Assembly: GCF_017744445.1 (NCBI RefSeq)
Contig: NZ_JAGIBH010000006.1
Span: 312,536-376,535, forward strand
Length of the DNA stretch: 64,000 nt
Direction: 5' to 3'
From: Caulobacter sp.
GTDB taxonomy: Bacteria > Pseudomonadota > Alphaproteobacteria > Caulobacterales > Caulobacteraceae
Made by a program: the position numbers and the translations under genes. Positions 9,869-53,020 of the stretch are shown piece by piece; the stretch's first letter is position 1, and each line of letters opens with the position of its first letter. A model generated the notes under the pieces. It worked only from the letters and a program-made list of their open reading frames with translations. It was not told the DNA's origin and did no database searches.

Positions 9869-10277
9869 AATAGGCGAAGGTCGCCGGCGCCTTGGGATCG
9901 TCGCCATAGCGATTTGGGCCAGTTGAACCGGGGACCAGCGCCAAGCCATACAGGGCCAGATCAACCAGCGGCGCGAAGTGCAGCAGCGTCAGCCAGCCTG
10001 TCATGCCGATATCGTGCAGCCGGCGCGCGGTGACGGACATCAGCGCGATGGACACCCACAGCATGTAGACGCCCCCGCCCACGATCATCGCGCCGCCAGC
10101 CGGAATGGCGGTCTCATCGCCCATGTTCCCAGCGTAGCTCAGCATGCCAAAACCGCCGAAGAAGGCGACGAGGCCGATCCAGCGGGTCGCCCACGCGAAG
10201 ATAGCGAACGGCCAGAACTCTTCCCGCCGAGAGCGGCCGTGGAAATCGGCGAAGTGACGCATGGAATAGAAAAACAT
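9867..10277 (-). CDS. DUF805 family membrane protein
   Basis: MRHFADFHGRSRREEFWPFAIF...VTARRLHDIGMTGW. Confidence 0.85.
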   Translation of the reverse strand: MFFYSMRHFADFHGRSRREEFWPFAIFAWATRWIGLVAFFGGFGMLSYAGNMGDETAIPAGGAMIVGGGVYMLWVSIALMSVTARRLHDIGMTGWLTLLHFAPLVDLALYGLALVPGSTGPNRYGDDPKAPATFAY

Positions 10278-20718: not shown

Positions 20719-21144
20719 GTGCCTTTGAAGCTGTCGCTGAAGCCCGGCGAGAAGTTCGTCCTCAACGGCGCCGTGGTCCAGAACGGGGATCGGCGCGGTG
20801 TTCTGGTTCTCCAGAACAAGGCCTCCGTCCTTCGCGAGAAGGACATCATGCAGCCGGACCAGGTCACGACGCCTTCGCGTCGGATCTATTTCCCGGTAAT
20901 GATGATGTACCTGGAGGAGGGCAGCGCCGAGAAGTTTTATGAGGAATTCGCTACTCGCCTTAACGATTTTATGGGTGTTGTGCGTAATCCTGCGGTCCTT
21001 CAGGACTGCATCGCCATTTCGAAGCACGTGATGGCGCGTGAGTACTACAAGGCTCTGATGTTGAGCCGTAAGTTGATTGAATACGAAGACGAGAGGTTGG
21101 GGCATGTCTCTTCGGGCGTATCAGCAGGCGGCGACGCGGGCTGA
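20719..21144 (+). CDS. flbT: Flagellin mRNA post-transcriptional regulator FlbT
   Basis: [46 protein letters not shown] start. Confidence 0.95.
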
Positions 21145-21466
21145 GAATCCCCGTGAAATGGAGTACCGCCTGTTCGGGCAGGTGACGCGCGCCCTTATGG
21201 ACGCGTCCCAGGCCCCGGTGGACGACATTGCCACGCGGATCGACGCATTGGATTGGAATCGCAAGGTCTGGTCGGCCTTGGCGACCGACTGCGCCTTGCC
21301 CGAAAACCAGCTGCCGATGCAGCTGCGCGCCAGCATCATCTCGCTGAGCCTTTGGGTCGGCCGTCACTCCAGCGCCGTGATGCGCAAGGAGGAAGAGTTC
21401 GAGCCGCTGATCGAGATCAACCGCATGATCATGCAGGGCCTGTCGGGACGCGCCGACGCCGCCTGA
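21104..21466 (+). CDS. flaF: Flagellar biosynthesis regulator FlaF
   Basis: [31 protein letters not shown]; 41-nt overlap with flbT. Confidence 0.93.
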
Positions 21467-21628: not shown

Positions 21629-21643
21629 TGGCCCGCCGCTTGC
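21629..21643 (+). promoter_or_regulatory. Sigma54 (-24/-12) promoter TGGCCCGCCGCTTGC
   Basis: Fits TGGC-N7-TTGC with GG/GC spacing; upstream of fljL. Confidence 0.85.
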
Positions 21644-21714
21644 GATGGTTCACGCGGGCAAAACGCCCGCCCGGCAATACGCCGGACAAATCCCACCAAA
21701 ACGGTAGGTATCAA

Positions 21715-22539
21715 ATGCTGAATTCGATCAACACGAATCCGGGCGCGATGATCGCGCTCCAAAACCTGAACTCGACCAACACGGAGCTCGCCACCACCCA
21801 GAGCCGTATCAACACCGGCAAGAAGGTCGGAAGCGCTAAGGACAACGGCGCGATCTGGTCGATGGCCAAGATGCAGACTGCGAGCGCCAGCTCGTTGAAT
21901 GCCGTGAAAGACTCGCTCTCTCGCGGTCAGTCGACGATCGACGTTGCTCTCGCGGCCGGCGATACCATCACCGATCTGATCTCGAAGATGAAGGAAAAGG
22001 TTCTCGCCGCTTCCGACACTTCGCTGAACACCGCCTCGTTCAACGCCCTGAAGGCTGACTTCGTCTCGCTCCGCGACCAGATCCAAAAGGCCGCGGACAA
22101 TGCGAAGTTTAACGGCGTGAGCCTCGCTGACGGCAAGACCGCTCAGCTGGCTTTCCTGGCCAATTCGGACGGTGGCACCTTCACGGTCGCCGCCCAAGAT
22201 TTGAGCCTCGCAGGCCTTGGCCTGACGTCTGCCAACACGAACTTCACGACCGCCGCCGAAGCCAAGTCGCTCATCACGAACCTGACCTCGGCGTTGCAAA
22301 CGGCAACGAACAAACTGTCTTCCCTGGGCACTGCCTCGACCGGTCTGGATACTCACCTGACCTTCGTGGGCAAGCTGCAGGACAGCCTGGACGCCGGCGT
22401 GGGCAACCTCGTCGATGCGGATCTGGCGAAAGAAAGCGCCAAGCTGCAGTCGCTGCAAACCAAGCAGCAACTGGGCGTGCAGGCTCTCTCGATCGCGAAC
22501 CAGACGCCGCAGTCGATCCTGTCGCTGTTCAAGGGGTGA
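21715..22539 (+). CDS. fljL: Flagellin FljL-like
   Basis: [38 protein letters not shown]...[11 protein letters not shown]; paralog and position match. Confidence 0.85.
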
Positions 22540-22548
22540 GCCCGATAC

Positions 22549-22585
22549 GCCGGGCGGCCGTCAAAAGCCGCCCGGCGCCTCTTTC
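22549..22585 (+). terminator. Terminator hairpin after fljL
   Basis: GCCGGGCGGC-loop-GCCGCCCGGC followed by CTCTTTCC. Confidence 0.75.
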
Positions 22586-22631
22586 CTGCTGGGTGCGCAT
22601 TATGTGCCCGGCAACAATTGCCTATGTCGAA

Positions 22632-22660
22632 AGCCTCCCGGCAAAAATTGCCGGGAGGCT
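22632..22660. repeat. Perfect 13-bp inverted repeat AGCCTCCCGGCAA-AAA-TTGCCGGGAGGCT
   Basis: Read directly from sequence in the fljL-fljK intergenic region, ~70 bp upstream of the fljK sigma54 promoter. Confidence 0.9.
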
Positions 22661-22728
22661 TCGTCGTTAATGGATCTATAACGCAGTAATTTCAGTTATT
22701 TAGCCAGATTGTCGCGGCTCGGCAGAAT

Positions 22729-22743
22729 TGGCCCGGCAATTGC
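22729..22743 (+). promoter_or_regulatory. Sigma54 (-24/-12) promoter TGGCCCGGCAATTGC
   Basis: Fits TGGC-N7-TTGC; upstream of fljK. Confidence 0.9.
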
Positions 22744-22815
22744 TACAGACCTTTTCGAGCAAAACGCTCCCGGCAGCCAAAATGGCGTCGGATACCTTGA
22801 AAAGGATCTACTCGT

Positions 22816-23640
22816 ATGCCGCTGAACAGCATCAATACGAACGCGGGCGCCATGATCGCCCTGCAAAACCTGAACACGACGAACAGCGAGCTTCAGGTTA
22901 CCCAACAGCGCATCAACACCGGTAAGAAGGTGGGCAGCGCCAAGGACAACGGCGCCATCTGGGCCATGTCCAAGAACCAATCGGCCACGGCCTCGTCGCT
23001 GAACGCCGTCAAGGACTCGCTGCAACGCGGTCAATCCACCATCGACGTGGCGCTCGCCGCCGGTGACACCATCACCGACCTGCTCGGCAAGATGAAGGAA
23101 AAGGCCCTGGCCGCTTCCGACACCTCGCTGAACACCGCCTCGTTCAACGCCCTGAACGCCGACTTCGTCTCGCTGCGCGACCAGATCTCGAAGGCCGCCG
23201 CGAACGCCAAGTTCAACGGCATCAGCATCGCTGACGGCACCACCAACAGCCTGACCTTCCTGGCCAACACCGATGGTTCGGGCTTCACGGTCAAGGCGCA
23301 GTCCCTGACCCTGGCCGGCCTGGGTCTGGACTCCGTCGTCCCGGCCTTCACGACGGCCAGCGCGGCCAAGGCGATGATCGCTGAGATCGACACCGCCATC
23401 GGCACCGCCACCAACAAGCTGGCGACCCTGGGTACGTCTTCGACGGGCCTGGACACCCACCTGACCTTCGTCGGCAAGCTGCAAGACAGCCTGGACGCCG
23501 GCGTCGGCAACCTGGTGGACGCGGACCTGGCCAAGGAAAGCGCCAAGCTGCAGTCGCTGCAAACCAAGCAACAACTCGGCGTGCAGGCGCTGTCGATCGC
23601 GAACCAGTCGTCGTCGTCGATCCTGAGCCTGTTCCGCTAA
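22816..23640 (+). CDS. fljK: Flagellin FljK-like
   Basis: [40 protein letters not shown]...ILSLFR. Confidence 0.85.
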
Positions 23641-23753: not shown

Positions 23754-24110
23754 ATGGAACCAAAAGCCGCATTGTCGGCCATCAGAGACTTCATCGCTCC
23801 CGTTTCTCCCGCCAACGCCCCGGACCCGTCCGAGGGCGCGAACGTCGTTTCGGGGCAAGCTCAGGCGGCCGCGCCGCAACAGGTCCACGAGACCGAAAAG
23901 GCCGAGAAGGCCAAGCCGGTCGACGATGGTCCCCAGCCGGGCGACCTGCGTCTGGTGATCGAGCAGGATGATGACTCGGGCGACTACATCTACAAGACCG
24001 TCGATCGTCGTACGGGCGAAACGCTGAATCAGTATCCGCGAGAGCAGATCCTGAAGCTGCGCGAAGAGGCCCACTACGCTTCGGGCGACGTCTTCGACGG
24101 CCAGGCCTAG
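23754..24110 (+). CDS. flaG: FlaG family flagellar protein
   Basis: DLRLVIEQDDDSGDYIYKTVDRRTGETLNQYPREQILKLRE. Confidence 0.85.
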   Translation: MEPKAALSAIRDFIAPVSPANAPDPSEGANVVSGQAQAAAPQQVHETEKAEKAKPVDDGPQPGDLRLVIEQDDDSGDYIYKTVDRRTGETLNQYPREQILKLREEAHYASGDVFDGQA

Positions 24111-24301
24111 AAGCGCACGCGCTGAAGGCGGACTCGATCGGGAGAAGGGTGGGTGCGACCGCGGGCCGCACCGGTAAATAGATATGGTTTATGCGCGTTA
24201 ACCATAATCTTACCTTCTGAACCCAACTTGGGCGGCGAGTAGATCGCTCGCCGAATCGCGCGCGGTCGCAACCAACGGCAAAAGCCAGTCGGAGGCCGCG
24301 C

Positions 24302-25138
24302 ATGACGCTGAGCGTCAACACGAACCAGCCCGCGCTGATCGCGCTGCAGAACCTGAATCGCACCAACGATCAGATGCAGGCGACGCAAACCCGCATCAAC
24401 ACGGGCGAGCAGATCTCGACCGCCAAGGACAACGCGGCCATCTGGTCGATCGCCCAGGAACAGCGCGCCGACATGAGCGCGCTGGGCGCGGTCAAGATGA
24501 GCCTGGACCGCGCGACCTCGATCGCCGACGTGGCCCTGGCCGCGGGTGAGTCGGTCTCGGACCTCCTGAAGCTGATGCGCGAGAAGGTGGTGGCCGCCAA
24601 GGACACCTCGCTGACCTCGACCTCGCTGCAATCGCTGAATGCCGATTTCCAGGGCCTGCTGAAGAACCTGCAGCAGGTGATCAGCAGCGCCGTGTTCGAC
24701 GGCGCCAATCTGCTGGACGGCAGCCAGGCGGCCGACATGACCTTCCTGGCCGACGCCGATGCGGCCCAGGCCATCACGCTGAGCCTGCAGAACCTGACGA
24801 TGGGCGGCGGGATCAACGCCCTGGCCCCGACCGACGACATCCTGAACTCGGCCAACGCCACGTCCGTCCTGACGCGCCTCGACTCGACGATGAGCGCGAT
24901 CAACCAGGCCGTCGGCAACATCGGCACCCAGTCCAAGCAGATCGACGCCCACAACAGCTTCGTCTCCAAGCTGACCGACGTGCTGGAAACCGGCGTCGGC
25001 AATCTGGTCGATGCGGATCTGGCCAAGGAAAGCGCTCGCTTGCAGGCCTTGCAGGTCAAGCAGCAGCTGGGCGCCCAGGCCCTGTCGATCGCCAACGGCG
25101 CGCCGCAGATCATCCTGTCGCTGTTCAAGGGCGGCTAA
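24302..25138 (+). CDS. fljJ: Flagellin FljJ-like
   Basis: MTLSVNTNQPALIALQNLNRTNDQMQATQTRINTG...LGAQALSIANGAPQIILSLFKGG. Confidence 0.8.
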   Translation: MTLSVNTNQPALIALQNLNRTNDQMQATQTRINTGEQISTAKDNAAIWSIAQEQRADMSALGAVKMSLDRATSIADVALAAGESVSDLLKLMREKVVAAKDTSLTSTSLQSLNADFQGLLKNLQQVISSAVFDGANLLDGSQAADMTFLADADAAQAITLSLQNLTMGGGINALAPTDDILNSANATSVLTRLDSTMSAINQAVGNIGTQSKQIDAHNSFVSKLTDVLETGVGNLVDADLAKESARLQALQVKQQLGAQALSIANGAPQIILSLFKGG

Positions 25139-52847: not shown

Positions 52848-53020
52848 CACCTGACGACTTCGTTCAGATTGGGTTCAGGCGGCGGGTCCTAGGTTGCGGG
52901 TGTCGACCGGTCGCTGCGCCATCCGTCCCTCGATGTGGCGATCGGTTCACAGGTACATCCTGCGGAGGCGCGTCGCTTTTCCCAAGCGGCGCGTCTTTGA
53001 CTCTGGGTCCCCGCATCGCC

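Follow-up and report, generated by a model that had tools for sequence, protein, structure and literature searches.

In Caulobacter crescentus, repression of flagellin by FlbT is post-transcriptional and persists until the hook-basal body is complete, as summarised in PMC3930126 and PMC7591256. In the same sources, FlbT is stated to bind the 5' untranslated region of fljK (Anderson & Gober 2000, cited in PMC3930126) and, together with FljJ, to repress five structural flagellins (cited in PMC7591256). The action of FlbT on flagellin leaders is therefore already published. Reviews from 2014-2015, PMC3930126 among them, treat FlbT as an RNA-binding protein, regard its mechanism as unresolved and name no target motif. 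FlbT of Brucella has been reported to be an activator, whereas that of Caulobacter is a repressor. FlbT and FlaF have been suggested to form a system analogous to CsrA/FliW (PMC4894983). CsrA/FliW of Bacillus and Campylobacter likewise combines a small protein with hairpins over the flagellin Shine-Dalgarno sequence and is tied to filament assembly; CsrA reads GGA motifs, while the flagellin leaders described below present ARAA loops. A short RNA element lying over a translation start is also found in the MS2-type coat-protein operator, a short stem with an A-rich tetraloop and an unpaired A fixed a few pairs below it.

The locus studied here lies in a 64,000-nucleotide stretch of Caulobacter sp. 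DNA (the window; assembly GCF_017744445.1, contig NZ_JAGIBH010000006.1, positions 312,536 to 376,535 of the forward strand), and has the same genes, leaders and regulator as the C. crescentus system. The flbT gene, coding for the flagellin translational regulator (PF07378; positions 20719-21144 of the window, plus strand; Pfam FlbT, 151.9 bits; GTG start), and flaF (flbA; PF07309), coding for the flagellin secretion chaperone (21104-21466, plus strand; Pfam FlaF, 126.4 bits), precede the structural flagellin genes fljL (21715-22539) and fljK (22816-23640), both on the plus strand and both with Pfam Flagellin_N and Flagellin_C matches. Downstream, Pfam identifies a flaG-like gene (23754-24110) and a gene for a divergent, fljJ-like regulatory flagellin (24302-25138, plus strand). 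An earlier note on this sequence had placed flbT about 0.6 kb upstream of the flagellin leaders; the flbT stop codon and the fljL leader are some 0.51 kb apart. The FlbT protein is predicted to consist of a near-invariant N-terminal β-strand domain and a helical C-terminus, and no relative of it was found in the PDB by sequence. On reading the sequence, matches to the σ54 (-24/-12) promoter consensus were recognised in front of fljL (TGGCCCGCCGCTTGC, 21629-21643, plus strand) and fljK (TGGCCCGGCAATTGC, 22729-22743, plus strand). The +1 positions used here, around 21654 for fljL and around 22754-22755 for fljK, are those expected from these promoter sequences. The interval between fljL and fljK also contains a 13-bp hairpin with an AAAAT loop (AAGCCTCCCGGCA-AAAAT-TGCCGGGAGGCTT, 22631-22661), which is probably the fljL terminator. 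In a search against Rfam 15, no family reached its gathering cut-off in the leaders, and the matches in the whole window were the Caulobacter sRNA CC1840 (RF01521, 89 bits, 52902-52995) and one tRNA.

The earlier note had described six hairpins in the fljL and fljK leaders, and all six were recovered in place on the plus strand. In the fljL leader, hairpin 1 (GCGGGC-AAAAC-GCCCGC, 21654-21670, -11.6 kcal/mol) starts at the expected 5' end of the transcript and is followed by hairpin 2 (CCGGC-AATAC-GCCGG, 21671-21685) and by hairpin 3, whose core ACC-AAAAC-GGT (21695-21705) extends to 21692-21708 (CC-C-ACC-AAAAC-GGT-A-GG, -3.4 kcal/mol), with the Shine-Dalgarno sequence GGTAGG inside the 3' arm. 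The fljK leader begins with a weak hairpin 1 (GAGC-AAAAC-GCTC, 22757-22769, -3.7 kcal/mol). Its hairpin 2, previously taken for a 3-bp hairpin (GCC-AAAAT-GGC, 22776-22786), is actually an 8-bp stem with a bulged A exactly 3 bp below the loop (CCGGC-A-GCC-AAAAT-GGC-GTCGG, 22770-22791, -11.2 kcal/mol). Hairpin 3 (CCTT-GAA-AAGG, 22795-22805) is weak when taken alone (-0.4 kcal/mol) and, as claimed, its 3' arm is the fljK Shine-Dalgarno sequence AAGG(A). At least two ARAAN pentaloop hairpins per leader were matched by 1 of 2000 dinucleotide shuffles in the case of fljL and by 3 of 2000 in the case of fljK; the fold energy of the fljK leader alone is no more than mildly below that of shuffles (z = -1.4). 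Five of the six loops are indeed AAxAY pentaloops, a count that is correct for these two leaders and does not hold as a consensus. In fljL hairpin 2, the AATAC loop is a degenerate copy from a drifted subclade (relatives have AATAG, TCTAC, ACTAC, GAA and CCTG), while the AAAAC and AAAAT loops are conserved. The conserved code is thus ARAA(Y).

The same hairpins were looked for at 80 Caulobacterales loci located via FlbT, which yielded 122 structural flagellin leaders (the last 80 nt of each); a hairpin was counted if it had an ARAAN pentaloop and a stem of at least 3 bp. Structural leaders contained on average 1.74 such hairpins per 80 nt (n=122) versus 0.08 in shuffled sequences, and the mean was 0.10 before fljJ (n=48) and 0.01 before other genes of the same loci (n=957). 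Pairs of ARAAN hairpins no more than 50 nt apart occurred 100 times in 1.33 Mb, 88 of them in annotated structural flagellin leaders; seven of the other 12, at five loci, resemble flagellin leaders with missed or truncated gene calls. The tandem arrays in structural leaders support the proposal that the element is a repeated one rather than a single hairpin.

Two types of leader could be distinguished. The fljK type, which also precedes two flagellin genes on another contig (C93) of the same genome and occurs in Phenylobacterium and Brevundimonas relatives, consists of a 4-bp hairpin 1 with an AAAAN loop; a hairpin 2 with five lower pairs, a bulged base or 1x1 mismatch and exactly three further pairs, the last of which, C-G, closes an ARAAN loop; and a weak hairpin 3 over the Shine-Dalgarno sequence. 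Across 51 aligned leaders of this type, AAAA is invariant in the loop of hairpin 1, as is CA-AA-G in hairpin 2; in the latter hairpin the closing C-G pair is present in 51/51, and 49/51 have the bulge or mismatch at the same place, 3 bp below the loop. The fljL type starts at +1 with a hairpin whose stems are very variable (GCGGGC/GCCCGC, GAGCGA/TCGCTC, TGAACC/GGTTCG, GGCGGA/TCCGCC) and whose loops are A-rich. A second hairpin follows, and then a third of the form CC-NN-CC-ARAAY-GG-NN-GG, the 3' arm of which is the Shine-Dalgarno sequence. An ARAA loop is present in hairpin 1 of 49 of the 55 fljL-type leaders and in hairpin 2 of 35 of the 55; leaders of this type were selected by the hairpin 3 motif, so that the 55/55 loop count of hairpin 3 is circular, which does not apply to the variable stems around ARAA loops in hairpins 1 and 2. 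Three loci of the Caulobacter group carry extra, divergent flagellins (of the MPMNSINTNVGAMIALQSLNAINAE... type) that also have a hairpin leader, with a distinct second hairpin, CGGTCGC-AAAAC-GCGGCCG.

A covariance model of the leader (R1) was searched against the whole genome. Only four matches were better than E=0.01, all of them structural flagellin leaders; three of these were training sequences, and the fljL leader, which lay outside the training set, was found with E=1.1e-5. Throughout the genus Caulobacter, the model matched in 59 of 61 genomes, and in 49 of 49 that are at least 90% complete. When 18 less obvious matches were inspected, every one scoring 26.9 bits or more preceded a flagellin gene, and none scoring 25.6 bits or less did so. 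Eleven weak matches in the latter range, considered as possible non-flagellin targets, fall within or next to GC-rich coding sequence and were regarded as chance matches; a match near hisE in the present genome (18.2 bits) was likewise dismissed. Within the Caulobacterales, strong model matches are confined to the Caulobacteraceae, and flagellin leaders of the sister families have the same loops at other spacings.

Association of the hairpin with FlbT was analysed in a sample of the Alphaproteobacteria comprising about one genome per genus, with a detector for ARAA-loop hairpins with a 3' arm extending as far as the ribosome-binding region. In the first sample, such a Shine-Dalgarno hairpin was found in 19 of 28 genomes with FlbT and 4 of 26 without it, a result that is exploratory, since the criterion was fixed after this sample had been viewed. 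Fresh genomes, analysed as the test with the detector unchanged, gave 27 of 37 with FlbT versus 1 of 18 without (Fisher p=1.8e-6), the absence of flbT having been checked separately. Typical hairpins at the Shine-Dalgarno site of FlbT-containing genomes are TCC-AGAAT-GGA and CCT-AGAAC-AGG, and arrays of several hairpins were also seen at five loci outside the Caulobacterales. About a quarter of the genomes with FlbT had no such hairpin by the criterion used. The class-wide association could partly reflect shared descent, since the distribution of FlbT follows phylogeny. The proposal that the leaders are candidate targets of FlbT is supported by the published binding to the fljK leader, by genomic linkage and by the association in fresh genomes. 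In at least six genomes without FlbT, another motif, TCCAAGTAGGAGA, recurs at the Shine-Dalgarno site before flagellin genes; it could fold as TCC-AAGTA-GGA and possibly represents another system of leader control.

The fljJ-like gene of the window lacks hairpins 1 and 2 in its leader and has a GGC-AAAA-GCC hairpin just 5' of its Shine-Dalgarno sequence (24277-24286, plus strand), a possible single variant site. Under a wide criterion, ARAA-loop hairpins were present in 24 of 48 fljJ leaders, nearly all from the genus Caulobacter, where almost every fljJ leader has one, and two from the remaining Caulobacterales; forms seen in the genus include CGGCG-AGAA-CGCCG, CGGC-AAAATC-GCCG and CGGAA-AAAAT-TTCCG. 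As a negative control, fljJ is thus clean with respect to the two upstream hairpins but fails, in the genus Caulobacter, for the ARAA hairpin next to the Shine-Dalgarno sequence. It may be a lesser target, and the distribution of these hairpins hints at self-regulation. At three loci, two ARAA-loop hairpins (for example, GGCGA-AAAAT-TCGTC and TCC-AGAAT-GGA) also occur where the flbT coding sequence begins (locus positions ca. 10028-10069), a possible autoregulatory site, although this sequence is codon-constrained.

Relatedness of FlbT to CsrA was tested and found to lack support. The N-termini of the two proteins look alike by eye (including LILTRRVGETLMIGD; VLREKDI/VHREEI), and a structural model predicts five strands in similar places. 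However, hhalign gave a probability of 1-2%, and 11 of 150 (local) and 34 of 150 (global) column shuffles scored as well. Foldseek returned no significant match, and CsrA was not among the matches listed. The leaders themselves carry conserved ARAA(Y) loops and not the GGA-containing loop of a CsrA/RsmA site (ANGGA). The MS2-type operator is similar to the present hairpins in having a short stem, an A-rich loop and a fixed unpaired base below the loop. This is a resemblance only: the flagellin hairpins differ in having a pentaloop, a bulge that is not fixed to A and repeated copies, and in belonging to cellular flagellin genes.

The check that had been proposed for the hairpins, covariation and loop conservation in orthologous leaders, was carried out, and the idea survived it: hairpin 1 is paired in 51/51 aligned fljK-type leaders, and the loops are near invariant. 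Double compensatory changes were observed at three of the four pairs of hairpin 1, one of which is A-U in 28 leaders and G-C in 23. Double-changed cells numbered 46, compared to 15.6 in column shuffles, none of 500 of which reached this value. RNAalifold recovered only partial structure from raw MAFFT alignments, which have indels opposite the bulge, and pairs were also counted on a hand-defined frame. We conclude from the compensated stems and fixed loops that the hairpin array acts as a conserved structured RNA element. If the leaders had simply descended together from one ancestral cassette, with an ordinary Shine-Dalgarno context and incidental hairpins, this would account for the fact that the leaders of these paralogous flagellin genes can be aligned; yet compensatory double changes recur on the flagellin protein tree, where the two best positions require at least 5 and at least 10 changes of pair type, the same loop sits on very different stems, and the proportion of paired cells drops from 92.8% to 45% or less once partners are slid by 1-3 columns. 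We give this explanation hardly any credence. It is also very unlikely that a transcription factor working at the σ54 promoter uses the inverted repeats as its DNA operators. Their location would fit, since a σ54 promoter lies just upstream of the hairpins in 117 of the 122 structural leaders, with a hairpin loop 16-18 nt past the -12 GC in 114 of these 117. Operators, however, conserve their arms and not the spacer, and a constant loop between variable, covarying arms is the reverse of this arrangement. Moreover, the two C93 leaders have no recognisable -24/-12 elements, in contrast to the RpoN dependence of all six C. crescentus flagellin genes stated in a review (PMC3930126), and retain hairpins 1 and 2. 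The element is therefore not a by-product of the promoter.

Two further explanations accept that the hairpins act as RNA and assign them other roles; we consider both improbable. Hairpins at the extreme 5' end could be passive stabilisers of mRNA that block 5'-end-dependent decay by RNase E, as in the ompA leader. Hairpin 1 does start at or a few nucleotides from the expected +1, and its stem is rich in G and C (-11.6 kcal/mol in fljL). Such a stem needs no fixed loop, yet AAAA is invariant in all 51 leaders; hairpin 1 of fljK is weak (-3.7 kcal/mol), and hairpins 2 and 3 and the association with FlbT would be left unexplained. Alternatively, the ARAA loops could be read by another RNA-binding protein, be it Hfq or some other. 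The distal face of Hfq binds ARN triplets, which the A-rich loops resemble, and FlbT is itself a putative reader of the loops. But Hfq acts genome-wide, while neither this genome nor the inspected matches in the genus yielded a significant match outside flagellin leaders. The hairpin, furthermore, tracks the presence of flbT, and binding of FlbT to the fljK leader is published, as cited in PMC3930126.

The hairpin array before structural flagellin genes is thus probably the docking site of the repressor FlbT, and we think it quite likely that it works as a cis-acting RNA element whose loops are read by FlbT with FljJ and whose Shine-Dalgarno hairpin is clamped. Upstream stand two hairpins, of which hairpin 1 begins at the expected transcript 5' end or a few nucleotides from it, and a weak third hairpin, into which the Shine-Dalgarno sequence is folded, follows. 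The recognition code would be an ARAA(Y) loop closed by C-G, with stems free to vary as long as they remain paired and, in the fljK type, with a bulge 3 bp below the second loop. FlbT, with the flagellin FljJ as co-repressor, would read the loops and clamp the intrinsically weak Shine-Dalgarno hairpin shut, so that initiation is blocked; the upstream hairpins would add avidity or provide a 5'-end handle for mRNA turnover. Secretion of FljJ after hook completion would then release the leader. The weakness of the third hairpins (-3.4 and -0.4 kcal/mol), next to the strong fljL hairpin 1 and fljK hairpin 2, suits such a protein-clamped switch. The present data show the structure, its covariation, the conservation of its loops, its position, its restriction to structural flagellins and its association with FlbT; that FlbT makes its contacts at the ARAA loops, and that repression comes about by sequestration of the ribosome-binding site, is what we infer.

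What the present analysis adds to the reviews of C. crescentus FlbT is the ARAA(Y) code, the arrangement in arrays, the hairpin with a bulge and the Shine-Dalgarno hairpin found across the class. The code, the bulged array, the independence from the promoter and the FlbT-linked Shine-Dalgarno hairpin are new relative to Rfam and the literature surveyed, and Anderson & Gober (2000) may show part of this for fljK. A broader proposal, to which we would give an even chance, is that FlbT founds a family of RNA-binding proteins, independent of CsrA, that recognise an ARAA hairpin loop over the Shine-Dalgarno sequence. A single site would be ancestral in the Alphaproteobacteria with FlbT, and expansion to three hairpins in some lineages, including the Caulobacterales, would couple flagellin translation to export. 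The covariance model could become a new RNA family. With a covarying loop code at a fixed place on the ribosome-binding site, the mechanism of FlbT becomes directly testable, and the hairpin marks which other alphaproteobacterial flagellins should be under FlbT control.
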